A stretch of DNA of 25,436 bases from a virus, in IMG/VR virus record IMGVR_UViG_3300027749_000455, positions 1 to 25,436 of that record; one strand, 5' to 3'. The position numbers were made by a program, and so were the translations under genes. The notes under the pieces were generated by a model. It was given only the letters and a program-made list of their open reading frames with translations, was not told the DNA's origin and did not search any database. This document shows positions 3,007-15,750 of this stretch, piece after piece. Numbering within the stretch: position 1 is the first letter of the stretch; every line of letters begins with the position of its first letter.

Positions 3007-3060
3007 AATTTTCCTTTCGCAGAACCTCAATCGCAGCGAGAACTATTGCAAGGCCAAACT

Positions 3061-4746
3061 ATGTCTGAACCAGTGTCTGAGCATCCATTGATCAATCACA
3101 AGTACGGGATTCGTTCTCCAATCAAGATTCCAGATCTTGAACTAGAACTGTACGCATTTCGCAATCGTCTTCAGCCAAATGAAGGCGGACTTGGAACATT
3201 CAACCATTTCGTCAACGTCAGCAAAATGGTGTGGCCGAAGATGAGTTGGAATCCTTGGCTAGAAGCTCAGGTGGAAAGCCTTTGCGAACATGATTACGTT
3301 GGATGGGCAGGATGCGGAGCAAGCGGAAAGACCTTTGGCGCAACGCTTTTCGCAACTGTCTGGTGGCTTGCTAATCCATCGAAGACAACCGTTGTGCTAA
3401 CTTCCACCACGGCGAAGATGATTCGGAAGCGTATGTGGGCCAATCTTCAGGAATTGGTCCGCAAGTCGCGAGGGTTCCCCGGCAACATGGTTGATTCCAA
3501 GATGTCTTTGCAGGCAATCAAAGGCGATGATCGACACTCGATATCCGCGATTGCTGTCGCTGAAGGAAACACGTCCAAGGCGGTGGCCAACATCCAGGGC
3601 ATCCATGCAGAGCGGGTGATGGTCATCATCGACGAAGCTACGGACACTCCCGAAGCAGCTTTCGAGGCTTGTACCAACCTGAGCAAAGGCTGTCGCGAGT
3701 TCAAGATGCTCGTCATCGGAAACCCTGCGTCAAAGTACGACCCTCATGGACGGTTCTGCACGCCGGCAAAGGGATGGCGCAGCGTCACCATCGAGGACCA
3801 GCATTGGCTGACAGAACGCGGTATGTGCCGACGGTTTGACGGCATGAAGTCTCCAAACATCAGCGAGGGACGCACGAAGTATCCCTATCTGATCACGCAC
3901 GACCAAGTTCTGTCGGCCATGCGCCATGAGGGCGAGCAGTCTCCTACGTTCTGGAAGTACACACGCGGGTTCTGGTCGCCGGACGGAATGGTGAAGACAG
4001 TTCTGTCGGAATCAATCATCGAGACGTACACACCTACAAGAAAATTGGTGTTTACTACCAACGTCCAAGTTGTCGCCAGCTTGGACCCCGGTTTTGGTGG
4101 TGATCGATGCGTTCTTCGTTTTGCAAAAGTTGGCACCGCTAACGATAAAGTAAGCATTCTTTTTGGAGACGTGATCCACATTTCTCCAAATGCACAGCTA
4201 ACCGAGCCGGTCCATTACCAGATTGCCAACCGGGTAAAGGAAGAATGTTCTCAGCGAGGAGTCCCACCGGACAAGTTTGCTCTGGATTCAAGCGGCGAAG
4301 GAGGTGGATTGGCCGACATCCTGACCCGAGAATGGGGCGTTGTTCATCGAGTCGAGTTCGGCGGATCCGCTTCGACCATCCCGGTCAGCGATGAGGATTC
4401 AAGGCCATGTAACGAAGCATACGACCGAAAAGTGACAGAGTTGTGGTTCTCGATGCGTAAATGGGTTGTCGAAGAACGTGTAGGAGGGATGGACATGGAG
4501 ACGCTTCAAGAGTTCTGCGCTCGTATGTTTGACGATTCCAAGCGCAAGATATCGGTAGAAACCAAGACTGTGATGAAGCAACGCACCGGAAAATCTCCTG
4601 ACTTGGCGGATGCTGCTGTTGTCTTGCTTGATTTGGTTCGTAAAACCGCTGTCCTTGAACCCAGAGCAACTAAAGTTGACAAAGTTTGGGAAAAGCTGGT
4701 CCGTGAAGCAGATTCAATCTATCACGACGAACAAATCGAAGGATGA
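3061..4746 (+). CDS. terL: Terminase large subunit (ATPase and nuclease)
   Basis: This is the packaging motor that pumps and cuts phage DNA at the portal. It has 561 residues from the ATG at 3061, chosen because AAGG lies about 9 bases upstream; the frame is open to 2995. The ATPase domain shows Walker A GCGASGKT (84-91), Walker B VMVIIDEA (186-193, D191/E192) and a coupling-motif-like LVIGNP (217-222). The RNase H-like nuclease follows with D342 (SLDPGFGG), D409 (FALDSSGEG) and the C-terminal SPDLADA (D514, D517). The length is normal for TerL and no catalytic residue is missing. The gene opens the plus-strand late operon and overlaps the next gene by ATGA. The TerS-like gene is not adjacent; it lies on the other strand at 18647-19111. 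Confidence 0.97.
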   Translation: MSEPVSEHPLINHKYGIRSPIKIPDLELELYAFRNRLQPNEGGLGTFNHFVNVSKMVWPKMSWNPWLEAQVESLCEHDYVGWAGCGASGKTFGATLFATVWWLANPSKTTVVLTSTTAKMIRKRMWANLQELVRKSRGFPGNMVDSKMSLQAIKGDDRHSISAIAVAEGNTSKAVANIQGIHAERVMVIIDEATDTPEAAFEACTNLSKGCREFKMLVIGNPASKYDPHGRFCTPAKGWRSVTIEDQHWLTERGMCRRFDGMKSPNISEGRTKYPYLITHDQVLSAMRHEGEQSPTFWKYTRGFWSPDGMVKTVLSESIIETYTPTRKLVFTTNVQVVASLDPGFGGDRCVLRFAKVGTANDKVSILFGDVIHISPNAQLTEPVHYQIANRVKEECSQRGVPPDKFALDSSGEGGGLADILTREWGVVHRVEFGGSASTIPVSDEDSRPCNEAYDRKVTELWFSMRKWVVEERVGGMDMETLQEFCARMFDDSKRKISVETKTVMKQRTGKSPDLADAAVVLLDLVRKTAVLEPRATKVDKVWEKLVREADSIYHDEQIEG

Positions 4747-5372
4747 ACAAAAGAACTGGATACAAAATCTTGAACGAACACATGGTCATCCCAGGTGGAT
4801 GGCATTATCGGGTTCCAGAGACAGGTATCGAGATTGCTGGCGGTTCATGGCCACAACTCCATGAGTTCATCAAAAATCATTACAATGCGAATGCAATCCA
4901 GATACCGGGAAACCTTGATGACCTGATTGTTGAATATGCGTGCAGAAATGGGGCTGATTGCACGTATGACGAGGTCGAGCTATCCAAGCCGGCTGGACGC
5001 AAATCATTGGAGATTGGTGACGTTATCCGTTTCAGCATGAGCCTGCTGCATGGATTGACCGTTGGTGGAGGAAAAGTGGGCCAAGAAGAAGCTAATCGTC
5101 GCGCCAACATCTGCGCTGGATGTCGATTCAATAGAAAGCCGCTTGGATGCACAGGATGTAATGCGCGAGTATTGAAAGATGCTGTCAAAACATTTTCTCA
5201 ACACGGAAGCACCCCTGTTGACGAACAGCTACAAAGTTGTGAGTTTTGCGGCTGTTTCATAAGGAGCCTGGTATGGTTTCCTATTGAAACACTCTATAAA
5301 TTTGCAGACAGTACAGAGAACGAAAACCTTCCGAATCACTGCTGGAAAAAACGACCATGTACGGCAACCTAG
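4743..5372 (+). CDS. Cys-rich putative zinc-binding protein between TerL and portal
   Basis: The protein has 209 residues and starts inside the terL stop (ATGA). I do not recognise a named family. The N-terminal ~100 residues look globular, with the motif PGGWHYRVPETG. The C-terminal half carries a C-x2-C pair (NICAGCRFN), another C-x2-C (GCTGC), then CEFCGC and a final HCW. This is enough Cys/His for one or two structural zinc sites, like treble-clef or ribbon domains. Its 3' end overlaps the portal start by 16 bp, so translation is probably coupled. A role in packaging or portal assembly is suggested only by position. Rubredoxin-like iron binding is an alternative. Confidence 0.85.
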   Translation: MNKRTGYKILNEHMVIPGGWHYRVPETGIEIAGGSWPQLHEFIKNHYNANAIQIPGNLDDLIVEYACRNGADCTYDEVELSKPAGRKSLEIGDVIRFSMSLLHGLTVGGGKVGQEEANRRANICAGCRFNRKPLGCTGCNARVLKDAVKTFSQHGSTPVDEQLQSCEFCGCFIRSLVWFPIETLYKFADSTENENLPNHCWKKRPCTAT

Positions 5373-7600
5373 TCCAACTACCGCTCGAAACCATCGATGA
5401 AGACGGCAAGGCTCCTGAGACGCGCATTGCTGATGCGGCATCTGCTCGCGAGATCTTCCAGAAGCTGATCATGGCAGATCAGTTGCGTAATGCCACGCGC
5501 TCCAAGTTGCGCGGACTTGTCGATGGAAATCCGCCATACAATCCAGCGGAGCTTCGTCGAAACAACCAAGCATTCCGCACCAACGTGAACTTCCGCGAGT
5601 CTGAAGCGTTTCTATCGCTCGCGATGGCTTCATTCTATGACGTGTTCGCCGAGGTTCCGACCTATGCCAATATCCGCACTGGTTACGGAAACGACATGGA
5701 TAAGCGGGAGGATTGGTCGAAAATCATCACTGAAGAGTTTGATCGACTCCAGAAGCTGGACAAGGATTTTGATTACATCATGCAGTTGTCGCAGCGAGAA
5801 ATGGTTCTTGTTGGAGATGGCCCATTGATTTTTGAGGATGCAACCGATTGGCGATGCAAAGCCATCATGGCGAATGATTTGCTTGTTCCTGATGGAACCA
5901 AGTCCAATGTCAGCGATTGGAAAGTTGCGCTTGTCCGTACCCGGATGGGTGTAGATGACTTGTTTGAAAAGATTCAAGACGAGAAATCCGCAAAAGCCAC
6001 CGGATGGAACGTAGATTATGTACGTCAGCGTATCCGTGCGGCAATGCCTGAACCGTATCGCTCTGGTGTGCAGTACGATTGGGAGTTTTTCCAACGTCAG
6101 CTTCGTTCAAACGATATCACGTTTTCTGCGCGGTCCGAGGTGGTGTTGATGTGCCACGTCTTCTACAAAGAATTCGATGGCAAGATCAGTCACGCTATCA
6201 TCGATGAGCGGGACAGCCAGGGGTTCATGTATCGGAAGCTGCGTCGATTCAGCCGATGGGAACAGGTCATACATCCGATGTACTACGACCGTGGCGATGG
6301 CGAGCATCATGGAGTCAAAGGTCTTGGAATCAAGATGTTGCAGGCGATGGAGTTGAAGAACCGACTCCGTTGCGCGATGGTTGATGCCGCATTCGCGCGC
6401 ACCCAGATCCTGTTCCGACCGCTCAACGCCAACGCCCTTAGCAAGACGAGCGTGGTGCAGCAGGGTCCGTACGCAATTCTTCCTCCTGATTACGAAGTCA
6501 TCCAGCAGAACATCGCCGGCGTCCTAGACGCTCCCATGGCGGTCAACGCGGAACTTGAGAACGTGCTCCAAGGGAACCTGTCACAGTACAGGCAATCGCT
6601 CTCCAAGCCCCAAGGAAACCCCAAGACGGCGTTCGAGGTGAACGTGATGGTGTCGCAGCAGTCTGCGATTGGTAAGACCCAGTTGAGCCGGTACTACAAC
6701 CAACTCGATTCGTTCTTTGAGGAGCGATACAACCGCGCTTCAAATCCAAACCTGAACCCAATCACGAAGTCTGACAAGGACGCCATCGAGTTCCAGCGTC
6801 GATGCAAAGAGCGTGGTGTTCCTGTGCAGGCCATGATGGATATTGATTTCGTTGAGGCTACTCGGACGGTTGGCCAAGGTTCTCAGTTTGCGAAGCAGCA
6901 ATTGCTTGGTTCATTGCTCAGTCTTTCTGGTGCTCTTCCCGAAGGCGGCAAGATCAATCTGCTCAAGGACTACATCGCGGCGCAGGTTGGTCAGCAGATG
7001 GTGGATAGGTATCTGCCAACTCAAATTCAATCGTCGCGCATCCAGGACCAAGCCGCTCTTGCCGTTCTCGAACATGCGTCCATCCACCAGAGCAATATGC
7101 CGATTGTCACCGACACGCAGGACCACGTGATCCACATCGACACGCACATGGCTGCGGCAAACCAAGCTGCTTCATCGCTCCAGAGCGGTGGCAATCCACA
7201 GGAAATCATGTTGTTCATGCAGGGTATCGGGCAACACGTACAAGACCATTTGCAGCGTCTTTCCACTGACCCCGCTCGCCGGCAACAGGTTGATGGATAC
7301 GCGCAGCACCTTCAGGAGCTTGGAAAGACAATCGAGCAGCTTGGTCAGATGCTCCAGCAGCAACAACAGGGTCAAGCGCAGATGCAGCAGGCGCAGGCCA
7401 TCCAGCAGGGTACTGACCCTCGTACCGCTGTGATGAACGCCGATATCCAAGCAAAAATTGCTCGCCAGAATGCGGAGACGATGGCCAACATCCAACGACA
7501 GAACGCAAAGACGAGCGCAGATTTGTCCCGTAGGAATGCGAAGACGACTGCGGACATACAGCGAGCGAACGCAACTGCCGAGTCTGACTTGGCGCGGTGA
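5357..7600 (+). CDS. Portal protein (podovirus-like, long form)
   Basis: The protein has 747 residues. It would form the dodecameric portal ring at the unique capsid vertex, where TerL docks and the tail attaches. The length matches long portals of P22-like and related podoviruses. Seen in the sequence: an N-terminal helical part; a mixed core with MVLVGDGPLIFEDATDW and a dense YYDRGDGEHHGVKGLG stretch; a helical segment around residues 380-480; and a Gln-rich C-terminal barrel-like region. The last ~54 residues are 11-residue repeats with A-D/N-I/L-x-R-x-N-A phasing, a probable extended coiled coil. The weak ribosome site GGAAAAAACGACC precedes the ATG. Identification rests on length, helical pattern, Gln-rich C-terminus and position between terL and the scaffold-like gene. 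Confidence 0.88.
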   Translation: MYGNLVQLPLETIDEDGKAPETRIADAASAREIFQKLIMADQLRNATRSKLRGLVDGNPPYNPAELRRNNQAFRTNVNFRESEAFLSLAMASFYDVFAEVPTYANIRTGYGNDMDKREDWSKIITEEFDRLQKLDKDFDYIMQLSQREMVLVGDGPLIFEDATDWRCKAIMANDLLVPDGTKSNVSDWKVALVRTRMGVDDLFEKIQDEKSAKATGWNVDYVRQRIRAAMPEPYRSGVQYDWEFFQRQLRSNDITFSARSEVVLMCHVFYKEFDGKISHAIIDERDSQGFMYRKLRRFSRWEQVIHPMYYDRGDGEHHGVKGLGIKMLQAMELKNRLRCAMVDAAFARTQILFRPLNANALSKTSVVQQGPYAILPPDYEVIQQNIAGVLDAPMAVNAELENVLQGNLSQYRQSLSKPQGNPKTAFEVNVMVSQQSAIGKTQLSRYYNQLDSFFEERYNRASNPNLNPITKSDKDAIEFQRRCKERGVPVQAMMDIDFVEATRTVGQGSQFAKQQLLGSLLSLSGALPEGGKINLLKDYIAAQVGQQMVDRYLPTQIQSSRIQDQAALAVLEHASIHQSNMPIVTDTQDHVIHIDTHMAAANQAASSLQSGGNPQEIMLFMQGIGQHVQDHLQRLSTDPARRQQVDGYAQHLQELGKTIEQLGQMLQQQQQGQAQMQQAQAIQQGTDPRTAVMNADIQAKIARQNAETMANIQRQNAKTSADLSRRNAKTTADIQRANATAESDLAR

Positions 7601-7602
7601 TA

Positions 7603-8334
7603 ATGAAAAACATACATTTCGTACACGGCCTTCACGACGACGGATTCCACATCTGCGAACGGATTGCAATCGCTTCAGCTTGGGTAAACAACCCGGACTG
7701 GAGCGTTTTTCTTTGGACTCCTAATGAACCAACCGGCGAACAATGGGAAAAGCTCAAGGCCAAGGTTCCGGTCCGCGTGATGCTGATCGACAACCCGATA
7801 CATTGGAACGGCAACAACATACCAAAGCATCAGCATCGAGCCGACCTGATCCGCCACACCGTCCTGTACACGATGGGCGGAGTCTATGCTGACACCGACA
7901 CCATCACGGTCGCTCCGTTTCCAAAAGATTGGCTTGATCACGACACGGTCATCGGTCGCGAGTTCTGCGGTTCGGACCCGACCATCGGCCTGTGCAATGC
8001 GGTCATGTTCTCCAAGATGCACAGCCGGTTCCAATGGAAGTGGCTCCAGAAATGGCAGGAGTTCGACGGGAGCGGCTGGAACGAGATCTCGGTCCAGTAC
8101 CCGATGAAGTTGCATCAAGAAAATCCCGGACTAGCCAAGGTTGTTGACTTCGAGATGTTGGGGTTCATCCACTGTGAATCAAATAAGTATTGGCATGGAA
8201 TCCATTCTCTTTCTGGATGTTCAATCGCCCACTTGTGGCGGACCTATCACGACCAGACGATGCGCTCGTTGACAGAAGAGAAGATTTTGAAACGCGAAAA
8301 CACTTACTGCGAGTATGCTTCAAAATACCTTTGA
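7603..8334 (+). CDS. GT32-like glycosyltransferase with DXD motif
   Basis: The protein has 243 residues from the ATG at 7603. A GTG at 7597 that overlaps the portal stop as GTGA is an equally possible start. It resembles the Gly_transf_sug/GT32 type of retaining glycosyltransferase, which transfers a sugar from a nucleotide donor. The block HRADLIRHTVLYTMGGVYAD is followed by the metal-binding DTD (residues 97-99), both hallmarks of this family. A late aromatic segment, SIAHLWRTYHDQTM, resembles the family's C-terminal histidine region. The protein is cytoplasmic by appearance, with no signal or membrane segment. It is the first gene of a cassette of sugar and methyl transferases inside the head operon. 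Donor and acceptor are unknown. Confidence 0.9.
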   Translation: MKNIHFVHGLHDDGFHICERIAIASAWVNNPDWSVFLWTPNEPTGEQWEKLKAKVPVRVMLIDNPIHWNGNNIPKHQHRADLIRHTVLYTMGGVYADTDTITVAPFPKDWLDHDTVIGREFCGSDPTIGLCNAVMFSKMHSRFQWKWLQKWQEFDGSGWNEISVQYPMKLHQENPGLAKVVDFEMLGFIHCESNKYWHGIHSLSGCSIAHLWRTYHDQTMRSLTEEKILKRENTYCEYASKYL

Positions 8335-8881
8335 CCGTATCTATCGGAACGATGAGTGGAACGGAGGCTCTGGACCCGGATCTCATGCACAAAACACAGC
8401 CAAGTACGTCGAGTTCCTGAACTCGTTCATCCGCGAGAACTCAATCAAGTCTATATTAGATGTTGGATGTGGAGATTGGCAGTTGATGTCTATGGTTGAT
8501 CTGTCCGGTATCCGATACAAAGGGATTGATGTCAGTCAAGTCGCCGTTGATATTGCTAAGACTCGCGCCCCGATTGGAACAGATATCAACGTTGGGGACA
8601 TCGGCGACATCCGAGAATCTTTTGATCTGGTCCATATCAAAGACGTGTTGCAACATCTTGAGTTTTCGAGGTGCAGAAAGATTCTGGACACGATTTCTTC
8701 CCGGCATAAATCCGCGCTTGTCGTCAACGAGTATCCAGGAAACACAAACGACATCCAAGATGGTGGTTACAGGCCGTTGAGTATCGCCTCTGACCCTCTT
8801 TGTTGGCCGAGATCAACAATGATCAGCGTGTTCAATGAGCCTGCGTTTAGAAAATCAGTAACATATATCTATCCATTATGA
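8315..8881 (+). CDS. Class I SAM-dependent methyltransferase
   Basis: The protein has 188 residues and overlaps the end of the glycosyltransferase gene by 20 bp. Motif I is clear (ILDVGCGDW, residues 47-55), with an acidic residue at the end of strand 2 (GIDVSQ, D72) and a motif IV-like FDLVHIKDVLQHLE. This is the Rossmann-like SAM-binding fold of small-molecule or sugar methyltransferases; nothing marks it as a DNA methyltransferase (no DPPY or PC motif). The C-terminus is short (CWPRSTMISVFNEPAF, then YIYPL). Given its neighbours, methylation of a glycan or sugar precursor is the best guess, but the substrate is not shown by the sequence. Confidence 0.9.
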   Translation: MLQNTFDRIYRNDEWNGGSGPGSHAQNTAKYVEFLNSFIRENSIKSILDVGCGDWQLMSMVDLSGIRYKGIDVSQVAVDIAKTRAPIGTDINVGDIGDIRESFDLVHIKDVLQHLEFSRCRKILDTISSRHKSALVVNEYPGNTNDIQDGGYRPLSIASDPLCWPRSTMISVFNEPAFRKSVTYIYPL

Positions 8882-9498
8882 CTCCGCATGAATTGCTGAA
8901 AGACTTTGTATCAATCCATTATCCAAAGATGGGTGGATGGTGCGACCCTGAAAAGGGGTTCCAGATTGGAAGCCTTGTTCTCGACCACAAGCCTCAACAT
9001 ATCGCGGAGGTCGGTGTGTTCGAGGGCAAGTCAACGCTCGCTCTGGCTTATGCCTGCAAGCTCAACGGTAGCGGAACCGTTTATGCAATCGACTCATGGA
9101 AAAAAGAGGATTGCATCGATGACGAGACAAACCCCAACCAAGAATGGTGGTCGAAGCTAGACCTGGACGGCCACTACGAGGCTTTTGTGGGCCACTGTGT
9201 CCGTGCTCAGGTTGTTCGTCAGATGCAGTTCTGTCGTATGTCGTCATGGGACGCTTCGAGGTCGCTCCCGGATATGGATATGGTCCACATCGACGCGAAC
9301 CATGCTGAATGGCCGTCCACCAGCGATGTCGTCAACTGGCTTCCAAAGCTCAAGGTCGGCGGTTATCTGATCATGGATGATGTGAATTGGGATTCCACGC
9401 AGACTGCCATCCGGTTGGCGGAAAAATACTGCACGCTGATCCAGCGGTTCGACATGAAAGAAAGCGTGTTCTCTATCTATCAAAAAACAAAGAAATGA
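8878..9498 (+). CDS. Class I SAM methyltransferase, Methyltransf_24-like
   Basis: The protein has 206 residues and starts in an ATGA overlap with the preceding methyltransferase. It shows the motif IAEVGVFEGKS (42-52), the acidic IDSW at 71-74, and the paired signature VHIDANHAE then GGYLIMDDVNW. This arrangement is typical of the Methyltransf_24 and cephalosporin-hydroxylase-like methyltransferases found in surface-polysaccharide clusters. It differs clearly from the preceding enzyme, so the two are not a recent duplication. The 3' end overlaps the GT25-like gene by ATGA. The role is probably O-methylation of a sugar made or transferred by the neighbouring enzymes; the substrate is unknown. 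Confidence 0.88.
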   Translation: MTPHELLKDFVSIHYPKMGGWCDPEKGFQIGSLVLDHKPQHIAEVGVFEGKSTLALAYACKLNGSGTVYAIDSWKKEDCIDDETNPNQEWWSKLDLDGHYEAFVGHCVRAQVVRQMQFCRMSSWDASRSLPDMDMVHIDANHAEWPSTSDVVNWLPKLKVGGYLIMDDVNWDSTQTAIRLAEKYCTLIQRFDMKESVFSIYQKTKK

Positions 9499-10094
9499 CA
9501 CCGATTGTCATAACGCAGCGGGGGTCGGAGAGGATTGGACCAGTCACGGAAAGGCTCAAGGGATATGGTGTCCAAGAGTTCAAGTTTTTCTATGGGTTCA
9601 ACGGAGCAAAGTCCGGTCTTAAAGCAACCATCCCGTATACAGGTGACGACCCAAGCGGATCAGAACATATCGGACCAAAGCATATCGGCTGCACGATGTC
9701 GCACATCATGCTGTGGAGCGCGCTTGAACTGTCAGGTGAGAATGATCATTGGCTTATATTTGAAGATGACGTGATGCTTCGGGATGGATGGAAAGAATCC
9801 ATCAACCTCGCTCTGGAAGAAGTTCCAAAAGATTGGGACATGATTTTTGTCGGGTCATGCTGCACCCAGGGCCGTGTCGGTGAAAAGGTTGGCAATGCTC
9901 TGTATCGATGCCACCCGCTCTGCACGCATGCGTACATGGTGCGACGAAAAGCGTTGAAGACGTTGCTCGAAACGGTAGTTGAAATTTCTGCACCAATTGA
10001 TTTGCTGATTTTCTTCAAATCAAGGCATCTTCTGAATTCCTATTCAATTATCCCAAGGGTCGCAGACCAGTTTGACACAGAGATTCCAGATTGA
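9495..10094 (+). CDS. GT25-like (LPS-type) glycosyltransferase
   Basis: The protein has 199 residues from the ATG at 9495, chosen because it overlaps the previous stop as ATGA; the frame is open further upstream. The N-terminus PIVITQRGSERIGPVTERL fits the start of GT25 proteins. HIGCTMSHIMLWSAL is followed by LIFEDDVML, the family's acidic metal-binding motif (EDD), and then HAYMVRRKALKTLL with APIDLL, matching the conserved C-terminal half. GT25 enzymes add galactose or other sugars to lipooligosaccharide cores and, in large viruses and animals, to collagen-like hydroxylysine. That is notable because this phage encodes a collagen-like fibre, but a link is inference only. No membrane segment is seen. 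Confidence 0.88.
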   Translation: MTPIVITQRGSERIGPVTERLKGYGVQEFKFFYGFNGAKSGLKATIPYTGDDPSGSEHIGPKHIGCTMSHIMLWSALELSGENDHWLIFEDDVMLRDGWKESINLALEEVPKDWDMIFVGSCCTQGRVGEKVGNALYRCHPLCTHAYMVRRKALKTLLETVVEISAPIDLLIFFKSRHLLNSYSIIPRVADQFDTEIPD

Positions 10095-10107
10095 TTTGAG
10101 CATTAAA

Positions 10108-11451
10108 ATGAAAGACATCATCCGAAGCCTTTCCATCAAGGCTCTAAAACGATTTGCAAATGGTGGAGACGGTCAAGCCGACTTGTTGATGGAGATTGAA
10201 GATCTACGCAAGACACTTAAATTGAGAGCGGTTGAAAATGAAGAGCATCTGACAGAGGTTCGAGAAGAGCGCGACCATTGGCTGTCTCTTTATGATGAAA
10301 TCAAATTTGCTGCTGAATTCCTTATGAGCTACGCAAAAAATGACGTCCCAAGGCTGGCTGAACAAGTGGATTGGGAGGTCGGCAAGATTGTTCTACCGGA
10401 GGAGGTCGGAACTTACTATTTCAATCCTGCTATCCTTCAAGAATCGGACGGCAAGATTCTTTTGTTTGCTCGTCGATGCCGCAACAAACGCGAGAAGGAT
10501 GAGGATACGTATGTCGAGAAGAACGACATCGTTGTCTTTGAACTCAGCAAAGACCTTCGAGCGACCAAGAAAGCGTTGATCCAACTGACATCTCAACATC
10601 CAAACGAACAGTTTGAAGACCCTCGCGTGGTAAAATTTGGAGACAAGTACGGGATAAACTGCGCCACCTTTGTTCCGTTCAAGTCATACGCGCATCAGGC
10701 GATGTTCCTGCTCGACAAACAGTTCCTGAACGTGGGCCGGTTCGATACTGTATATGGCAACAACTTGTCCCAGGCGATGGTGAACGATGGGCACGAAAAG
10801 AACTGGCTTTTATTCGTCCACGATAATGCGCCACACATGGTGTATTCTGCCAATCCTCACGTCGTTGTGCGCCTCAATGGGCGGTTAGAGAAGGAAATGG
10901 AATACTCGACCGATGAGTTCAATCCTCTTTGGAAGTTCGGCGAAGTGCGCGGCGGCTCCAACCCTATCCTTGCGGACGGCCTGTACTGGACCTTCTTCCA
11001 TAGCTCGCTCCCGTGGATCAACAAGAAGCGTAGGTATTACATGGGTGCATACGCTTTTGAAGCCAAAGCTCCGTTCCGCATCGTTCGCATGACCACGCTT
11101 CCAATCTTGACCGGAACAAATCAACAAGATTGGTGGCCTGGACTTCCTGCGGTTGTGTTCCCGTGCGGCGCGTTCTACGATAGTTCCAAGAATCAGTTCG
11201 TTGTTTCGTACGGAATCAACGATGTTGACTGCGGATACATCAAGCTACCACTGGCCGACATGCTGGAGATCACCAAGATCATCCGGCCCAAACGAGATAC
11301 CGTCACCCCCGAGAAACCAATCAAACTAGATGACGTTCTCGACCCGATTCCTCAGAGACACAAACTGAAACGTAACACGATCACAAAATATGATAAACTG
11401 GATGCGCGGCTTAACGAAAGAGAACCCGAAGAACTTGCTGGAACTGCCTGA
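10108..11451 (+). CDS. GH130-like five-bladed propeller glycosidase/phosphorylase with coiled-coil N-terminus
   Basis: The protein has 447 residues from the ATG at 10108; a TTG at 10072 in the same frame is less likely. Residues 20-65 form a charged probable coiled coil (LLMEIEDLRKTLKLR and onward). From about residue 95 the protein resembles GH130-type propellers, which cleave or phosphorolyse mannosides and related sugars: FNPAIL (105-110), FEDPRV (169-174), HEKNW (229-233), RGGSNPI (281-287), FHSS (297-300) and FPCGA (351-355). No signal peptide is visible, so it would act in the cytoplasm or on the particle. It lies just after two glycosyltransferases and two methyltransferases. Enzymatic activity and substrate are not proven; it could be a carbohydrate-binding propeller only. 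Confidence 0.8.
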   Translation: MKDIIRSLSIKALKRFANGGDGQADLLMEIEDLRKTLKLRAVENEEHLTEVREERDHWLSLYDEIKFAAEFLMSYAKNDVPRLAEQVDWEVGKIVLPEEVGTYYFNPAILQESDGKILLFARRCRNKREKDEDTYVEKNDIVVFELSKDLRATKKALIQLTSQHPNEQFEDPRVVKFGDKYGINCATFVPFKSYAHQAMFLLDKQFLNVGRFDTVYGNNLSQAMVNDGHEKNWLLFVHDNAPHMVYSANPHVVVRLNGRLEKEMEYSTDEFNPLWKFGEVRGGSNPILADGLYWTFFHSSLPWINKKRRYYMGAYAFEAKAPFRIVRMTTLPILTGTNQQDWWPGLPAVVFPCGAFYDSSKNQFVVSYGINDVDCGYIKLPLADMLEITKIIRPKRDTVTPEKPIKLDDVLDPIPQRHKLKRNTITKYDKLDARLNEREPEELAGTA

Positions 11452-11713
11452 CGTAAATATCGCGGACTGGATAACCAACGGACAACAGGCAGAACTCGCG
11501 CTCATCATGCGGAATCCTGTGCTCAGGATGGCTCTACGCATCGTCGCAGAGTCCATGCCCGTCGCAATGCCATCTCACGGTAGCAAGGAGTCAGACATTG
11601 TTTTTGCTGCGGGAATCACCGCTGGTTATGCACATTGTCTTGAAAATTTGCGAAAATTGTCAGTAGTTGATGCCACGAAAGAACTTGAAGCGACCTTTGA
11701 CGATAAAAACTAA
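11390..11713 (+). CDS. Small hypothetical protein upstream of scaffold
   Basis: The protein has 107 residues. Its ATG at 11390 lies 62 bp inside the GH130-like gene; an in-frame ATG at 11402 is an alternative start. The sequence appears alpha-helical, with MRNPVLRMALRIVAESMPVA followed by the segment AAGITAGYAHCLENLRKL. I know no function. A small helical protein of this sort often sits between portal and scaffold genes in phages with similar gene order, so a structural or assembly role is plausible. The next gene starts 10 bp later. Confidence 0.7.
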   Translation: MINWMRGLTKENPKNLLELPDVNIADWITNGQQAELALIMRNPVLRMALRIVAESMPVAMPSHGSKESDIVFAAGITAGYAHCLENLRKLSVVDATKELEATFDDKN

Positions 11714-11722
11714 CAAAACTTT

Positions 11723-12892
11723 ATGGAAGAACCACTGAACTCGCCCGTTGTCCACTCTGCACAGCCTCCTGATTTTGGAAGCTCATTCATCGACGCATTT
11801 AAGGCCAGCGGTCTTGAAGACATCGCGGTTGCTGATGGCGTTGCTTCTCAGGTCGTTGAAGAACCCAAGGCAAAAAAGCAATCACCTCCATCCGTCGATA
11901 GCAAAAAATCAAACTCTCAGGAAAAACTGAGTCGCGCGGAGATGGACATCGATCAGATGTTCAAGCCCAAGGAGAAGGCCGTCGAAATTGATTCTGACAT
12001 CCCGGAATCCATCAAGTCCACGAAAGCGGCAGACGCTTTCCGAAAGATCAAGGAGGAGAAGGCGCAGCTATCCAAACAGATTGATGACCTCAAGGCTGGA
12101 AAGGTTTCCGACACGGAGGTTGAATCCAAATTCAAGACGCTTCAATCAGAGCGTGATGCGCTTTCCGAACGTGTCCGATTGCTCGACATCGAGCGGCATC
12201 CTGATTTCGTCAAGAAGTACGAGTCGAAGATCACCGGCGTTTTTGATTCGTTGAAGGGGCTTGTCGGAACCGAAGGGGATCGCCTGATCGGATTGCTCAA
12301 GTCTCCCGAAAACGATTATCGGAACTCTCAGATCGACGATATTGTTGAAGGTCTTTCTCCTTCTAAGAAGGCGAAGCTCGGAGCATTGATTGTCAAGTAC
12401 GACGAGATCAACGGAGAAAAGTCTGCTGAGATGTCCGAGGCAAAAGCCGATTACGATGCGGTCATCTCGAAGTACAGGCAGGATAGCGATGCAAATACCG
12501 CGTCCGCTTTGGAGTCGGCCACCAAGACCTGGACCAAGGTGAGCGAGAATGCTCGCGCTCTTGAGATCTTCGAGCCTCGCGACAACGATGAGGAGTGGAA
12601 TACCGAGTTGAATGGCCGACTCAATCTCGCCCGACAGATCTTCAACGGTGAGAACAGTGAAGAAGACCTCGCCAAAGCCGCCCTATGGGCCGCAGCCGCT
12701 CCCAAGTACCGTGAACTGCTGTATTCTCAGGTGGAGGTCAACAAGCGCCTACAAGCCGAACTGGCTAAGTATCGCGGCAGTCAGCCTGGAGTCAGTTCCA
12801 AGGCGACCGGGGGTTCAAGCAAATCGAGCAGCGGAGACGCTTCCAAGAGCGAAGATTTTGTGGCAAGCGTGATGAAATCGCTTGGTCGCTAA
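11723..12892 (+). CDS. Putative capsid scaffolding protein
   Basis: The protein has 389 residues, is hydrophilic and highly charged, with no membrane segment or enzyme motif. Residues about 100-160 (KTADAFRKIKEEKAQLSKQ region) are a predicted coiled coil. A helical Ala/Glu-rich middle and a Ser/Gly/Lys-rich linker lead to a short C-terminal helix (SEDFVASVMKSLGR), a layout typical of scaffolds whose C-terminal helix binds the capsid protein. The portal is upstream, as expected. Unusually, the capsid gene is not next but lies on the other strand at 16571. The start follows TAACAAAACTTT with no ribosome site. A strong terminator follows the stop. Confidence 0.7.
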   Translation: MEEPLNSPVVHSAQPPDFGSSFIDAFKASGLEDIAVADGVASQVVEEPKAKKQSPPSVDSKKSNSQEKLSRAEMDIDQMFKPKEKAVEIDSDIPESIKSTKAADAFRKIKEEKAQLSKQIDDLKAGKVSDTEVESKFKTLQSERDALSERVRLLDIERHPDFVKKYESKITGVFDSLKGLVGTEGDRLIGLLKSPENDYRNSQIDDIVEGLSPSKKAKLGALIVKYDEINGEKSAEMSEAKADYDAVISKYRQDSDANTASALESATKTWTKVSENARALEIFEPRDNDEEWNTELNGRLNLARQIFNGENSEEDLAKAALWAAAAPKYRELLYSQVEVNKRLQAELAKYRGSQPGVSSKATGGSSKSSSGDASKSEDFVASVMKSLGR

Positions 12893-12909
12893 AACTCTAA
12901 AACAATTAC

Positions 12910-12944
12910 CCCCCGGTTGTTTTTATTACAATCGGGGGATTTTT
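12910..12944 (+). terminator. Rho-independent terminator of the terL-scaffold operon
   Basis: CCCCCGGTTGT at 12910-12920 pairs with ACAATCGGGGG at 12928-12938 (11 bp, one G-U pair) across a 7-base loop, followed by a U run at 12940-12944. It lies 18 bp after the scaffold stop and 12 bp beyond the stop of the convergent minus-strand operon. On the minus strand the hairpin is followed by a looser T-rich run (TTGTTTT), so it may stop transcription from both sides. Confidence 0.9.
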
Positions 12945-12955
12945 CTTGGAATAAA

Positions 12956-13111
12956 TTACTTCTTGTAAGGCCCGCTTCCGTAAGGCCCACTTCCACTCGG
13001 AACAGGTTTAGTGGTTGGCTTGGTTGGGGTTTTTGCTGAGGCTGATGTGGTTGTCTGCTTGTAAGGTCCGCTTCCTGAAACGGAACCCTTATACGGTGCG
13101 TTATTGCTCAT
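12956..13111 (-). CDS. 51-residue GSGPY-repeat microprotein
   Basis: The ATG at 13111 overlaps the stop of the lipoprotein gene as ATGA, and the frame ends with TAA at 12956. The peptide is low in complexity: GSVSGSGPYK near the N-terminus, a Thr/Ser/Lys/Pro linker, and GSGPYGSGPYKK at the end, giving three GSGPY units. It has no membrane segment, signal or cysteine. It is the last gene of the lysis group and is too short for most gene callers. The function is unknown. The stop/start overlap and the regular repeat argue that it is real. Confidence 0.6.
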   Translation of the reverse strand: MSNNAPYKGSVSGSGPYKQTTTSASAKTPTKPTTKPVPSGSGPYGSGPYKK

Positions 13112-13341
13112 TTATCCTTTGGTAGTGCATACCACCCTTCACTGATGATGATGCGGTTGCTGCTGCGAATCGTTTTGCCGCTTGCGTCAAGTACCCAAAC
13201 CTTAGCTTTGACGCTCTCAGCGAGGCGCACAGGCTCACCGTGGGGGACGTAGATCACTCGACTCGCGCACCCCGCGCTCATGCTCATCGATGCGAGCAAG
13301 CAGATCACGCTTAAGCTCCGGTTGTTTCTTGGCGTCTTCAC
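13108..13341 (-). CDS. Small lipoprotein, putative o-spanin (Rz1-like)
   Basis: The protein has 77 residues from a GTG at 13341. A basic N-terminus is followed by the hydrophobic core LSVICLLASMSM and SAGC, a relaxed lipobox with Cys25 as lipid anchor. The mature 53 residues include the motif YVPHGEPVRLAESVKAKVWV and end EGWYALPKDK, a pattern I recall in small phage lipoproteins near lysis genes. The 5' 107 bp overlap, in another frame, a gene for a small membrane-anchored protein, the classic Rz/Rz1 arrangement. It would sit in the outer membrane and pair with the inner-membrane partner at lysis. It is not proline-rich as many o-spanins are, so the name is a reasoned guess. Confidence 0.65.
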   Translation of the reverse strand: MKTPRNNRSLSVICLLASMSMSAGCASRVIYVPHGEPVRLAESVKAKVWVLDASGKTIRSSNRIIISEGWYALPKDK

Positions 13342-13414
13342 TAGATACGTCCTGTTTTGACAAAGAAAATAGCCAAGCGACCAGTTTTACAATCAGGTCA
13401 GCCAAAAAACTCAT
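13235..13414 (-). CDS. Short inner-membrane protein, putative i-spanin (Rz-like)
   Basis: The protein has 59 residues. Its ATG at 13414 overlaps the stop of the upstream holin-like gene as ATGA. The N-terminal FLADLIVKLVAWLFSLS is hydrophobic enough for a membrane anchor, followed by a charged helical tail (EDAKKQPELKRDLLARIDEH) ending in DLRPPR. The lipoprotein gene starts inside it in the +1 frame and extends past its end. Membrane anchor plus charged helix fits an i-spanin, though lambda-type i-spanins are more than twice as long; the long-reaching part may be reduced here. Without the overlapping lipoprotein I would call it only a small membrane protein. Confidence 0.55.
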   Translation of the reverse strand: MSFLADLIVKLVAWLFSLSKQDVSSEDAKKQPELKRDLLARIDEHERGVRESSDLRPPR

Positions 13415-13596
13415 TTCTGACCTGCTGCATCAGCGTTTTTCTTGTTGTTATAGATGGACCAGGCGACACCAGAAGCGGTGACAGCGGCACCGACAAGCTC
13501 GCCGGCTTGATCAGTAGAAACAAGACCCTTGGCAACCAAGAAACCGCCAGCAGCGGTCAAAAGATGGCGAAGCAGAGATGCAAAATAAGCGTTCAT
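13411..13596 (-). CDS. Putative holin (Pam3-gp28-like)
   Basis: The protein has 61 residues, with hydrophobic segments at about residues 5-25 (ASLLRHLLTAAGGFLVAKGL) and 32-50 (GELVGAAVTASGVAWSIYN), then a charged tail (NNKKNADAAGQK). The RHLLTAAGGFLVAKGL block followed by VAWSIYNNKK resembles the putative holin family typified by Pam3 gp28 (from memory). Two membrane spans and small size fit a hole-forming lysis protein. It overlaps the preceding gene by ATGA and the i-spanin-like gene by ATGA, so the lysis genes are translationally coupled. Confidence 0.7.
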   Translation of the reverse strand: MNAYFASLLRHLLTAAGGFLVAKGLVSTDQAGELVGAAVTASGVAWSIYNNKKNADAAGQK

Positions 13597-13787
13597 TTGT
13601 CGTTTTTAAGTTTTCTGTACAGTTCGATTGATTTTACAACACAGGTCAAAAGGGCGGCAAGCGCACCAAGCGCAAGCGATGCTCCTTTTAGATTTGGTTC
13701 TGAAAATATCGCGTTACCAATCAGGCCAAGAACTGGCGCACCAACGCCTATCGACATATCGCGAACAAAAGCGTGGTGGCCAGTCAT
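13593..13787 (-). CDS. Small membrane protein, second holin or antiholin candidate
   Basis: The protein has 64 residues. AAGG lies about 7 bases before the ATG at 13787. Hydrophobic segments are IGVGAPVLGLIGNAIF (about 13-28) and ASLALGALAALLTCVV (about 36-51), followed by the basic tail KSIELYRKLKNDK. Size, two spans and charged C-terminus fit the holin/antiholin class, but no specific family is recognised. It lies directly before the Pam3-gp28-like gene with an ATGA overlap. Confidence 0.6.
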   Translation of the reverse strand: MTGHHAFVRDMSIGVGAPVLGLIGNAIFSEPNLKGASLALGALAALLTCVVKSIELYRKLKNDK

Positions 13788-13796
13788 GGTGGCCTT

Positions 13797-13952
13797 TTAA
13801 TTGGTTCCCTCGGACTGCTTTGCAGCTTCAAGTATGATGTCGGCAATCGGAACAGCGACCTTTGCATTCTGATAACCACCGGCTTTGATGGCGATATCGA
13901 CGAGTTGCATCAGTGCGTTCGCTTGTTCAGTCGTCAGTTCAATTTTGATCAT
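13797..13952 (-). CDS. 51-residue soluble phage microprotein
   Basis: The ATG at 13952 overlaps the stop of the DUF7936-like gene as ATGA; the TAA is at 13797. The sequence begins MIKIELTTEQANALMQLVDI and continues with AIKAGGYQNA and VAVPIADIILEAAKQ. It looks like a single compact helical unit; similar short LTxEEANALLxLIDxA proteins are common in phage tail and lysis regions, without a known function. It has no cysteine or membrane segment. Stop/start coupling on the upstream side and an intact frame make it likely real. Confidence 0.7.
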   Translation of the reverse strand: MIKIELTTEQANALMQLVDIAIKAGGYQNAKVAVPIADIILEAAKQSEGTN

Positions 13953-14326
13953 GCGACAGGAGCTTCGGAAACAATTATAGGCTCGTCAATGACAACTGGA
14001 ACCGGCGTCCAAGGAAGCGGAAGCGACACGACCGGAGCATTGGCCTGGTCAACAATCTCTTTCTCCACGCTCGCCTCGACAGACGCCTTATCAACACCAT
14101 TGTCCCAACACCAACCAAGAACTTGAGCATCGGTCAATTGGTCGTACGGAGTGAAATCGCCGCTAGGAGGAGCGAACGAGACGCATCCGGTCAAAACAGA
14201 ACTAAATGCCCCATCAGATCCACGGCAACTCCAGTTCGCCGTGACGACGACATCAGACAACGATGCTTCGGAATTTTTGACCAAAAGCTGTTTGATGATC
14301 CAGTTGATTGAGATAGTGGTGGTCAT
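13949..14326 (-). CDS. DUF7936-like phage protein
   Basis: The protein has 125 residues. N-terminal ISINWIIKQLLVK and SDVVVTANWSCRGSDG are followed by the strongly conserved-looking FTPYDQLTDAQVLGWCWDNG, then a helical stretch (VEASVEKEIVDQ) and a Pro-rich PPxPW-like end (SLPLPWTPVP). This combination matches proteins I recall as DUF7936, small tail-region proteins of unknown function in aquatic phages. It begins 6 bp after the tail-fibre stop without a ribosome site (TTTAATCTTTT before ATG) and overlaps the next gene by 4 bp. Confidence 0.75.
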   Translation of the reverse strand: MTTTISINWIIKQLLVKNSEASLSDVVVTANWSCRGSDGAFSSVLTGCVSFAPPSGDFTPYDQLTDAQVLGWCWDNGVDKASVEASVEKEIVDQANAPVVSLPLPWTPVPVVIDEPIIVSEAPVA

Positions 14327-14332
14327 AAAAGA

Positions 14333-15535
14333 TTAAATCATGTAAGAGCCAGAAACAAGAATGTATGGAACCGGGCAAATCGCGACAGCAGATTGAGCGC
14401 CTCCACCAGTAGCATATTGAGAAACATTGATGTAATTTACACCATTGTCCATGTATGCTTGTGCCACATTCAATGCCGTCAAGGTAAGCCCGCCAAGGTT
14501 GGTTATTGAAAATGAGTTAAGCTGACCTACGGTTCCGTTTGATGTAAAAGGAAGACCAGAGATACGCATAGCTCCGGTACCGGTATGTGCAGATGTCGCG
14601 ACATACAACCTAAATGTTACAAGATTTCCAACTTTTGTGTAGTTTCCGCTTTGAACAACATAAGTTCCAACACCAGCGGTAGTTCCGCCAACAATGGTCG
14701 GAGTGAACGTGCCTTCCTCGTAATCATCAAGAGTGTTCACATCCGTCGCAGCAACCTGCGTCGCCGGGAATGTGATGCCCGATTTAAGCTGGAGAACACC
14801 ACCGTTTGCGTTGACGGTCACAACGCCGACCAACAGATTTCCATTGCTGTCGATGCGCGCACGCTCCGCAGTCGAAACAGTGTCAGAAACGTAAAACAAC
14901 AAACTTCCACGATTAGAAGCTGCTGCTTCCAGCAAACAGCCAATCCCAACTCCGAAGATTTGTCCGCCACCTGTATTTACAGGTTTGATTAGAAGAGACA
15001 TCTGGTCGTTGACCACGCCTGTTCCGCTCGACCCAATAATAAGCCCATTTACATTGACTCCTCGCGCAACCCCGACCTCAAATTTTACGCTGGGAGAAAC
15101 TCCAACACCCAATCCAGTTGAATTGAGCGTCATCCGCGTGCCGCCTGCGCCGTCGTACCAACTGAACACGCCAAGAGGCGCAATCCGATACTGCGCCAGC
15201 GAATTGGCGGCAAATTCCAACGTGTTCGCAGCAGGAAGCCACGTTCCATTGGCTGGAATAGTTCCACCAGTGACAGTCGAACTAGCCATCGTCATCGGAC
15301 CAGCAAGAGTCAACGCATCCGTCGCCTTGTTGTACGTCAAGCCAGCGTCACCAGCCAGATTCGTTCCTCCATCATTAAAAATGATCTGCGTGGTAGCACC
15401 TGGAAGGCCGACACCCCCTCCAAGAGCCGTGTACAACTCGGTGAAGTTCTGGTTGGTGTAATCAAACGACGTTCGCAACGGTGTACCCGTTCCATCGTTA
15501 GGAGCCGCGCCGATGTTGATGGTCTGTTTTGCCAT
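14333..15535 (-). CDS. Tail fibre / tail spike-like protein
   Basis: The protein has 400 residues. The N-terminus INIGAAPNDGTGTPLRTSFD with NQNFTELY is a hallmark of phage tail fibres and spikes that dock on the tail. The middle is Gly/Thr/Asn-rich with repeated short beta segments (TTQIIFNDGGTNLAGDAGLT). The C-terminal third contains DDYEEGTFTPTIVGG and YTKVGNLVTFRLYV, a domain found at the tips of many phage fibres. No enzymatic motif is seen. It is probably a trimeric fibre, and is the second fibre-like protein in the window beside the collagen-like one at 1813. The leader is CATCTAATTTT with no Shine-Dalgarno sequence. Confidence 0.88.
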   Translation of the reverse strand: MAKQTINIGAAPNDGTGTPLRTSFDYTNQNFTELYTALGGGVGLPGATTQIIFNDGGTNLAGDAGLTYNKATDALTLAGPMTMASSTVTGGTIPANGTWLPAANTLEFAANSLAQYRIAPLGVFSWYDGAGGTRMTLNSTGLGVGVSPSVKFEVGVARGVNVNGLIIGSSGTGVVNDQMSLLIKPVNTGGGQIFGVGIGCLLEAAASNRGSLLFYVSDTVSTAERARIDSNGNLLVGVVTVNANGGVLQLKSGITFPATQVAATDVNTLDDYEEGTFTPTIVGGTTAGVGTYVVQSGNYTKVGNLVTFRLYVATSAHTGTGAMRISGLPFTSNGTVGQLNSFSITNLGGLTLTALNVAQAYMDNGVNYINVSQYATGGGAQSAVAICPVPYILVSGSYMI

Positions 15536-15539
15536 AAAA

Positions 15540-15749
15540 TTAGATGAATTCCGTCATGTCCGCAGTGATCATTGTCGAAGATGAATCGATAACCGTGTTG
15601 TCAGCAGTGATATCCGCCGTTCCACCAAGAGTCGATGCCTCCCAAAGTAGGCCAAGCTCCAACAGAACCCTTTCACGCGGACTCTTGCACGAAGCTCCAT
15701 AAGCCTCGTTGATCAAAGTCAAAGCATCCGCGCAAGAAAGATTAGCCAT
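15540..15749 (-). CDS. Small virion-like protein with shared N-terminal module and ITAD motif
   Basis: The protein has 69 residues from the ATG at 15749, chosen because the upstream gene stops at 15751 and this N-terminus aligns with it. Residues 1-37 (MANLSCADALTLINEA, then CKSPRERVLLELGLLWEA) closely resemble the start of the next gene upstream, so the two share a helical module. The C-terminal half ends in an ITAD motif (TADITADNTVI and MITADMT) also seen in the 603-residue protein at the left edge. It is probably a small structural or fibre-attachment protein; no function is known. Confidence 0.7.
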   Translation of the reverse strand: MANLSCADALTLINEAYGASCKSPRERVLLELGLLWEASTLGGTADITADNTVIDSSSTMITADMTEFI

Positions 15750-15750
15750 A

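Follow-up and report, generated by a model that had tools for sequence, protein, structure and literature searches.

Exchangeable glycosyltransferase and methyltransferase genes at one slot of environmental phages covary with a domain of a probable fibre protein

The window, as we call the whole stretch of DNA analysed here, is a 25,436-bp virus record (IMG/VR record IMGVR_UViG_3300027749_000455) that was judged by its gene content to be a tailed phage. Five tightly spaced genes on the + strand fill positions 7603-11451, and the initial annotation took them for one coupled glycan-modification cassette. Their presence and close spacing were confirmed from the open reading frames (ORFs), and low ratios of non-synonymous to synonymous substitution rates (dN/dS) in relatives showed them to be real genes. 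A 2-nt gap separates the first gene from the upstream gene, provisionally called the portal gene; the next three junctions are overlaps of 20, 4 and 4 nt, a 13-nt gap precedes the fifth gene, which encodes a GH130-like protein, and the end of this gene is in turn overlapped by the start (11390) of a small gene, p107. Gene starts were set by conservation in relatives, which moved three of them (GT32 to 7603, GT25 to 9495 and GH130 to 10108). As a single unit, the five genes did not survive the comparison with relatives: the exchangeable unit is the two to five genes between the portal gene and a constant GH130-like gene, a slot that the first four genes occupy in the window.

All five proteins scored over the curated Pfam cut-offs of the families proposed for them initially (GT32, two methyltransferases, GT25 and GH130). 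The first exchangeable gene (7603-8334, +) encodes a GT32-type glycosyltransferase (PF04488, 48.3 bits; cut-off 23) with a D-x-D motif at residues 97-99; D97-T-D99 is invariant in 8 aligned sequences, the window's included, consistent with membership in GT32, and the dN/dS of the gene is 0.058. MT25 (8315-8881, +) is a class I S-adenosylmethionine (SAM) methyltransferase (PF13649, 34.9 bits, cut-off 27; PF08241, 33.7 bits; phrog_3382, 3.6e-21). MT24 (8878-9498, +) is of the Methyltransf_24 type (PF13578, 69.3 bits; cut-off 26.3) and is probably a sugar O-methyltransferase. Its secondary matches to RMNT_CmcI and TylF were both below cut-off, and an alternative cassette gene of the relatives, MT24p, reached 63.0 bits with PF13578 and 30.6 bits with TylF, the latter over the cut-off of 23; phrog_2675, which MT24 also matches, carries the annotation DNA methyltransferase. 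The last exchangeable gene (9495-10094, +) encodes a GT25-type glycosyltransferase (PF01755, 49.8 bits; cut-off 24), a homologue of gp36 of the mycobacteriophage Firecracker. Against the same cut-off, the GT25 variants of the relatives scored 52.9 (GT25_B1), 87.2 (GT25p), 26.4 (GT25_C) and, just below it, 22.2 bits (GT25_B2). Another methyltransferase of the relatives, MTc5, was below the Pfam cut-off (best 17.4 bits), but its AlphaFold2 model (predicted local distance difference test, pLDDT, 73.9) matched class I SAM methyltransferases in the PDB, the best being NovO (E 3.9e-9). Median dN/dS in relatives was 0.046-0.132 for the 12 cassette gene families and 0.058 for the portal gene, indicating that the cassette genes are real, functional and under purifying selection. 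No strong membrane segment was seen in representative cassette proteins (maximum 19-residue hydropathy, KD19, 1.59).

The constant GH130-like protein (10108-11451, +), which lies outside the exchanged unit, carries an extension of some 100 residues at its N-terminus. Its PF04041 match (37.3 bits; cut-off 26) spans residues 100-402 of the 459-aa ORF and positions 21-319 of the 320 in the profile, placing the protein within the GH130 profile family, and the proteins of 40 relatives are 81-97% identical to that of the window. Five residues (N106, R122, E170, D171 and D372) are invariant in 41 sequences and align weakly with the GH130 mannose site, the placements of R122 and D372 being the least secure of these alignments; the roles of mannose-site and active-site residues were taken from the available part of a published account (PMC4599007). 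Residues 174-275, where the phosphate-binding basic residues of a phosphorylase or the glutamate pair of a hydrolase would be sought, gave no confident alignment with GH130 enzymes, and an AlphaFold2 model from the 41 sequences (pLDDT 39) was not used. The protein thus shares with GH130 mannoside phosphorylases and mannosidases the profile match and the conserved mannose-site residues, but it is very distant from the characterised enzymes (best PDB profile match 3.9e-5) and is not a member of the characterised subfamilies (44.2 of 450 and 41 of 550 bits for the NCBIfam equivalogs). Different parts of a single 765-aa profile, PHROG 28262, match the GT32 and GH130-like proteins, which supports a biosynthetic link between them; this PHROG is apparently a phage family that joins GT32-like and GH130-like domains. 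As described in the accessible part of a report on GT108, enzymes of that family share the same five-bladed propeller fold and are dual glycosyltransferase-phosphorylases, so that the fold can build or cut (PMC8950772).

The left flank of the slot is the putative portal gene (5357-7600, +), and the conserved right flank beyond the GH130-like gene is p107 (11390-11713, +; 65-98% identity in 57 loci), followed by a putative scaffold gene (11723-12892, +; 65-96% identity in 56 loci). A terminator-like hairpin at 12910-12938 (+), recognised by a hairpin scan and by comparison with relatives, closes the transcription unit. It was the longest hairpin in a scan of 5000-14000 (11 pairs, 7 of them G-C, with a T tail), and a comparable hairpin was found within 120 nt after the scaffold gene in 12/61 rows including the window, against 0/76 after the portal gene, 2/66 after GH130, 1/65 after p107 and 4/76 at random places. 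The single terminator at 12910 that had been predicted is thus backed by the longest hairpin of the scan and by its enrichment after the scaffold gene. Since promoter-like sites were no commoner than in shuffled sequence (4 found against 7.3), we infer a single transcript. The predicted portal-to-scaffold order stands as regards the position of the slot; the names portal, scaffold and capsid found no support in profile searches and are kept as provisional, and among the head and packaging genes only TerL (2995-4746, +; phrog_2, 2.1e-21) has such support.

More than 100 related IMG/VR contigs formed the comparison set. A scan of IMG/VR with the portal gene yielded 154 relatives; we kept the best 80, whose portal genes were 86-100% identical. 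In INPHARED, the portal, GH130-like, GT32, capsid-like, MT24, MTc5 and y405 proteins had no match (E limit 1e-5; 1e-3 for y405, the probable fibre protein described below), TerL matched in 26 records at about 25% identity or less among the 15 matches listed, and GT25 and GT25p had only remote matches (Burkholderia phage AP3, an uncultured phage and Synechococcus phage S-8S55). The sole confirmed GTDB match (L082, CAITJF010000097.1) is a 4.8-kb contig in an uncultured Nitrosomonadales metagenome-assembled genome; it carries the GH130-like gene and may be mis-binned, and we take it as a weak hint at a host and make no host claim.

The location of the cassette was uniform. In the portal-scan loci, at least one glycosyltransferase and at least one methyltransferase were present in 71/71 loci with at least 1.5 kb of downstream sequence, and GH130 in 68/68 with at least 2.6 kb. 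As the initial annotation had it, the genes follow the portal gene, and this position was unchanged in every relative where both flanks were visible. Its further expectation, that related phages would not carry these genes elsewhere, could be followed in part: no match to a cassette family lay anywhere but between portal and GH130 in the 137 loci, each extending no more than 10 kb past its match, and in 12/12 larger records the GT25 and Methyltransf_24 matches fell within the slot. One locus, L076, lies in record G011, which at 92,531 bp is roughly double the length of the other larger records (42-47 kb); this record has a single GH130 match and is either chimeric or a larger relative.

The content of the slot varied. 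Ten gene combinations were distinguished, each with at least one glycosyltransferase and at least one methyltransferase. The 137 complete loci, window included, contain repeat views of the same contig and were reduced to 76 distinct cassette sequences. Type A, that of the window (GT32-MT25-MT24-GT25), accounts for 20 of them and type B (MT24-GT25_B1-MTc5-GT25_B2) for 29. Types C (GT2-MTc5-GT25_C, with MTc5 as its sole methyltransferase) and D (GT32-MT25p-GT25p-MT24p) were each found in 8, and types E (GT32-GT25p-MT24p) and F (MT24-GT25_B1) in 4. Single sequences represent type G (GT25_B1-MTc5-GT25_C-MT24p), type H (GT32-MT25p-GT25p; locus L007, whose contig ends after the first 41 residues of GH130) and type I (GT2-MT24-MTc5-GT25_B2), and type J (B plus MT24p) was found on later contigs, beyond the 76 counted. 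The gene order of the window recurs in related contigs, but nine other combinations also occupy the slot.

The distribution of types over the phylogeny indicates frequent exchange. After 10 of 81 rows had been dropped as untyped (mostly at a contig end), and with identical rows included in trees and shuffles, the minimum number of type changes was 23 on the portal tree (71 rows; shuffled mean 40.3, minimum 35), 19 on the GH130 tree (60 rows; 34.6 and 28) and 21 on the scaffold tree (55 rows; 31.8 and 27). Phages with 97-99% identical portal genes carry different cassette sets. The DNA of L038 (type C) and L042 (type E) is 97% identical up to the portal stop codon, has no detectable homology in the cassette and is again 97% identical from the start of GH130; L027 (C) and L043 (E) showed the same pattern (97% before the portal stop, 96-97% from the GH130 start, no detectable cassette homology). 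In L064 (F) and L066 (A), and likewise in L060 and L057, with portal genes 99% identical, only MT24 is common inside the slot (80-91%), and similarity resumes at 88-89%. Where two types share a gene, homology extends into it, as for the GT32 gene shared by A and D (L021 and L025). We also compared pairs by the less similar of their two flank genes, portal or GH130, using 60 of the 76 distinct cassettes: at 96-98% identity the types differed in 11/38 pairs, and the sole pair at 98% or above had the same type. Two types were found in one metagenome, for example B and E in 3300003277 and B and D in 3300031951. Among the relatives, record G005 has genes for RecT-like and RecE/exonuclease VIII-like proteins and record G008 has one for ThyX (L163:16642-18233; L165:9895-10545 for the G005/G008 features). 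RecT-like and RecE-like genes could drive the exchange of modules.

We then asked which other genes vary with the cassette once the relatedness of the phages is allowed for, by relating gene distance to the cassette given portal distance, with permutations both free and within backbone clusters (299 in a first screen of 13 genes, 999-1999 in the segment and pooled tests and 399 in a window scan). The clearest covariation in the first screen was that of y405 (1813-3006, -), a collagen-like and probably fibre protein, which is divergent from TerL (46-92% identity in 65 loci; phrog_31840, 3.3e-9); TerL lies between its gene and the cassette. The whole gene gave r 0.174 (p 0.0005). When it was split into segments and windows after this result had been seen, the signal was confined to residues 1-150 and was strongest (r 0.338) in 46-150 (2581-2895, -), a domain of the 405-aa ORF between two collagen-like stretches. 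New contigs were then added and cassette gene content was used as the measure; over the 59 distinct rows with the interval and the fibre domain visible, the domain reached a partial r of 0.385 (p 0.0005 both free and within clusters). Within clusters, no covariation was found in this pooled test for TerL (p 0.91), g209 (0.82), y405 151-270 (0.86) and 271-405 (0.59), nor for p107, scaffold and r77. TerL had given p 0.03 under free permutation, which shows that the within-cluster value is the one to trust. The scan with 60-aa windows, for which 12 proteins were tried, g88 was dropped (17 rows) and 11 were tested, the capsid being outside the scan, had its top value at y405 61-120 (r 0.41, p 0.0025, the smallest possible), the next being r 0.19.

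Comparison of close relatives gave the same picture. Among pairs with portal genes at least 98.5% identical, y405 46-150 was 96.5% identical when the cassette was the same (54 pairs) and 81.5% when it differed (64 pairs), whereas TerL was 99% identical in either case. Between L017 (C) and L019 (B), DNA identity is 95% over a stretch that begins within the fibre gene and takes in TerL, g209 and portal, the exception being the fibre domain (-2775 to -2476 relative to the start of portal), where identity falls to 67-78%; 60-nt windows are 87-100% identical from -2415 to the portal start, and the cassettes differ beyond the portal gene. A similar drop in the fibre domain (60-72%) separates L022 (B) from L025 (D), whereas in L021 (A) and L022 (B), which have the MT24-GT25 pair in common, the domain stays at 93-97%. 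Towards its C-terminus the fibre protein differs within several of the pairs regardless of the cassette. Residues 151-405 (1813-2580, -) are hypervariable on their own, without covariation with the cassette, and residues 271-405 have a mean identity of 58-60% between near-identical phages. A second and more variable fibre locus, fib400 with its neighbours (13949-16182, -), forms 43 sequence clusters in 49 relatives and showed no visible linkage to cassette type in 49 rows, being too variable to test well.

At residues 101-105 of y405, the allele SVDGL was carried by 38/41 rows of types A, B or F and by 0/14 others, and DVVGL by 7/7 rows of types D and E. On the portal tree, 6 or 7 of 8 independent pairs agreed with the rule that MT24 goes with SVDGL and none was opposite (sign test, median p 0.016). 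The fibre domain is best described as following the cassette groups A/B/F/J, C/G/I and D/E, with exceptions in L007, L008, L027, L038, L074, L076, L184 and L198.

Parts of this arrangement have precedents, and the proposal of the initial annotation that the system is undescribed finds no support in its original form. In cluster O mycobacteriophages, as the available part of the report describes, an O-methyltransferase and three glycosyltransferase-type genes lie between the portal and the capsid protease and were proposed to modify the capsid; their proteins were not in twice-banded virions and were detected in once-banded preparations or infected cells (PMC4351075). The accessible text of another source states that Corndog, Che8 and Myrna carry glycosylated proteins and that Corndog gp38 is essential for capsid glycosylation (PMC12363180). 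The gene order of Firecracker is TerL, portal, O-methyltransferase, an unknown gene, GT2-like, GT25, protease and capsid, and Corndog gp38 has the same order and length as Firecracker gp36. These four Corndogvirus genes (Corndog gp35-gp38, Firecracker gp33-gp36) occupy the same slot right after the portal, overlap and include the families Methyltransf_24, GT2/7C-like and GT25, which the cassettes of the window group also have; the layout of an O-methyltransferase and glycosyltransferases directly downstream of the portal is found in both, the portal of the window group being so named provisionally. In Firecracker, the O-methyltransferase scored 38.9 bits with PF13578 and 47.5 with TylF, the GT2-like protein was below cut-off, and gp36 scored 24.5 bits with PF01755 (cut-off 24). 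The window GT25 is homologous to gp36 (40.4 bits; hhalign probability 95.9), but MT24 and the O-methyltransferase are alike at the family level only (hhalign probability 14.9), no GH130-like protein was present among the four Corndogvirus genes scanned, and the phages are unrelated to the window group. Virion glycosylation has been reported for Corndog and is predicted here for the window group. The basic layout has the Corndogvirus precedent; what is new is that cassettes are exchanged, that a GH130-like partner stays constant and that a fibre domain covaries. The initial annotation is partly supported overall: what it observed was right and its interpretation was right in direction, but it was wrong on the unit and partly anticipated by Corndogvirus.

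More distant systems share single aspects. In bacterial capsule and O-antigen serotype loci, constant flanking genes enclose an exchangeable set of glycosyltransferases and recombination takes place in the flanks. The slot described here works alike, but it lies in a phage and holds two to five soluble enzymes and nothing that looks like a polymerase or flippase, and we do not count it as a member of that family. O-antigen seroconversion (gtr) systems consist of a membrane glucosyltransferase with GtrA and GtrB on a temperate phage; the cassette proteins have no strong membrane segment and 0/12 larger records had a PF00589 integrase match, which sets the slot apart from them, no search having been aimed at gtr profiles. 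For the algal virus PBCV-1, the available part of a published account describes A064R, with two glycosyltransferase domains and one methyltransferase domain, and glycan differences that define serological classes (PMC7019647). Virus-encoded cytoplasmic glycosyltransferases and a sugar O-methyltransferase decorate the particle there, as we propose here, but the PBCV-1 classes are spontaneous variants, some mapped to changes in glycosyltransferase genes, and not exchanged sets, and that portion of the account describes no matched acceptor domain (PMC7019647). In metaviromic or metagenomic islands, a conserved genome carries exchangeable modules, tail and C1q-domain genes included, that recombine between coexisting variants, according to the accessible part of the source (PMC7468147); what the window group exchanges at its single slot is a putative glycan pathway, and this varies together with another module some distance away.

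From the observed gene families, cassettes and exchanges, the selection on the genes and the covariation, we infer a glycan, its acceptor, its timing and a role for the GH130-like protein. We consider it probable that the portal-GH130 slot is a glycotype locus whose cassette builds a methylated glycan of the virion, with y405 46-150 as the most likely acceptor. Cytoplasmic glycosyltransferases and O-methyltransferases would come in several alternative sets, of which a given phage carries one in the slot to build the glycan on its own particle during assembly, and the sets would be swapped between close relatives by homologous recombination in the conserved flanks. The covarying domain lies near the N-terminus of y405 between collagen-like stretches and not in the hypervariable C-terminal part, a position that seems acceptor-like rather than that of a receptor-binding tip. 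The GT25-type enzyme is the best candidate for recognising it, because cassettes with a pair of MT24 and GT25 or GT25_B1 (A, B, F and J) usually share one fibre allele; as they do so despite differing in their other genes, this pair may build the protein-proximal part of the glycan, and the remaining genes may build the outer part. The constancy of the GH130-like protein across cassettes suggests a step common to all glycotypes, which would be addition of a beta-mannose-type sugar, as by GT108, or trimming. It is also possible, and we put it forward tentatively, that a change of glycan needs the coordinated replacement of the cassette and of an acceptor domain of about 100 residues some 4.7 kb away in the collagen-like fibre, while all that lies in between stays put, such that lineages carry interchangeable enzyme-acceptor pairs as bacteria carry serotypes, the pairs being held at mixed frequencies in nature by selection favouring rare coats. 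We did not find this two-locus arrangement in the literature searched; it may nonetheless be published.

Several results weigh against this interpretation. The fibre domain was not alone in covarying: within clusters, the first set also gave signals for GH130 (p 0.002), g88 (0.007), g143 (0.0075) and y405 1-45 (0.009), which were weaker in the pooled set (GH130 0.044, g88 0.063, g143 0.095, y405 1-45 0.10), where g101 also gave 0.095. Windows of small effect (r at most 0.14) with p 0.005-0.0125 occurred at y405 121-180, portal 481-540 and g101 1-60, and among the pairs with portal identity of at least 98.5%, y405 151-270 was also less similar when the cassettes differed (83.4 against 89.0%). 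The rule linking MT24 to SVDGL was chosen after the data had been seen, and 3 of the 41 rows with MT24 in the first set break it. Of 8 distinct later contigs, 6 followed the rule; L182 and L188 were counted once, as were L185 and L187, the members of each pair being identical in the pooled set. The two that failed were both of type I, in which GT2 is the first gene and MT24 is accompanied by the fibre allele of type C. L038, of type C, carries an E-like allele, and changes from A to B or from A to F leave the fibre domain almost unchanged, which means that the match is with groups of cassettes and not with each type. The fibre label of y405 rests on matches to Collagen (in the window) and C1q (in relatives) that are both below the Pfam cut-off, and the portal and scaffold are without profile support. 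Covariation with a fibre would be equally predicted by receptor matching, and contigs assembled from metagenomes can contain false joins at conserved flanks, although each combination tends to turn up again in many samples.

Receptor matching belongs to a different reading, in which the enzymes alter lipopolysaccharide (LPS) or another surface glycan of the host late in infection, which keeps progeny from re-adsorbing to infected cells or debris; the fibre domain would covary because that glycan is what it binds. GT25 is by its Pfam name a family of LPS biosynthesis, the covariation would be expected here too, and, in the accessible part of their report, the authors of a study on pelagimyophages favour modification of the O-chain as the role of those phage glycosyltransferases that lie in host-recognition regions (PMC7029224). 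We nevertheless regard it as quite unlikely, for in those relatives that could be judged the cassette is part of the head transcription unit, and its proteins are without strong membrane segments. Seroconversion is typically a lysogenic trait, and the larger records had no integrase match. The segment that covaries is near the N-terminus between collagen-like stretches and the hypervariable C-terminal part does not covary, nor does cassette type visibly track fib400, as far as so variable a locus allows this to be judged. Together with the glycosylation reported for the virion of Corndog, the closest described layout, in the available text of PMC12363180, the covarying domain favours decoration of the particle, which the initial annotation had already thought the better fit. 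A narrower doubt concerns the GH130-like protein, which might be a structural or chaperone protein of the head without catalysis, leaving only the upstream genes as a glycosylation pathway. Its backbone-like conservation (81-97%), its distance from characterised enzymes and an N-terminal extension that lies outside both the GH130 profile and the PDB matches fit such a role; the invariance of the residues that align, weakly, with the mannose site and the span of PHROG 28262 over both GT32 and GH130-like matches speak for an enzyme, and we think a purely structural role doubtful.

The slot might also be an ordinary hotspot of the metaviromic-island type, with assorted modification genes, perhaps for DNA or RNA, that have no shared target. 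Exchange of gene modules is common in environmental phages, among the known genes of phage islands from cryoconite, DNA methyltransferases were the commonest according to the accessible part of PMC7468147, and the phrog_2675 annotation of MT24 points the same way. This appears very unlikely in view of the glycosyltransferase and methyltransferase families found in 71/71 loci judged and the place of MT24 in Methyltransf_24 with secondary matches to sugar O-methyltransferases (below cut-off; over it for MT24p); the constant presence of GH130 beside the cassettes, the purifying selection on their genes and the covariation with a domain of the fibre together argue for one pathway. As for chimeric assembly across conserved flanks, mis-joins are conceivable where flanks are 95-99% identical between close relatives, and the INPHARED searches found no close isolate genome. 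An artefact of this kind is extremely unlikely to account for the exchanges and the covariation: many samples contain the same combinations in sequence-diverged form (76 distinct cassettes), and chimerism would not readily link the fibre domain to the cassette across about 4.7 kb whose genes do not covary.

Beyond the terminator-like hairpin, small genes at 13108-13596 (-), on the strand opposite to the head genes, resemble by eye a spanin-type lipoprotein and a holin.

Virion glycosylation has been reported for a few isolated phages. In mycobacteriophages it is discussed in terms of antibodies in the available parts of the literature, PMC12363180 included, a setting that would not explain sugar coats in an environmental phage group. 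Here, all members that could be judged have a putative glycan pathway, which is often switched and whose candidate acceptor tends to switch along with it; in the constant GH130-like protein, the GH130 family may have been put to a new use. The matched alleles of enzymes and fibre domain are ready-made pairs for co-expression, and two questions become testable: what selects phage sugar coats in nature, and how a phage glycosyltransferase recognises a virion protein. Our results suggest that viruses of this group coat their own particles in sugars and can switch these coats.

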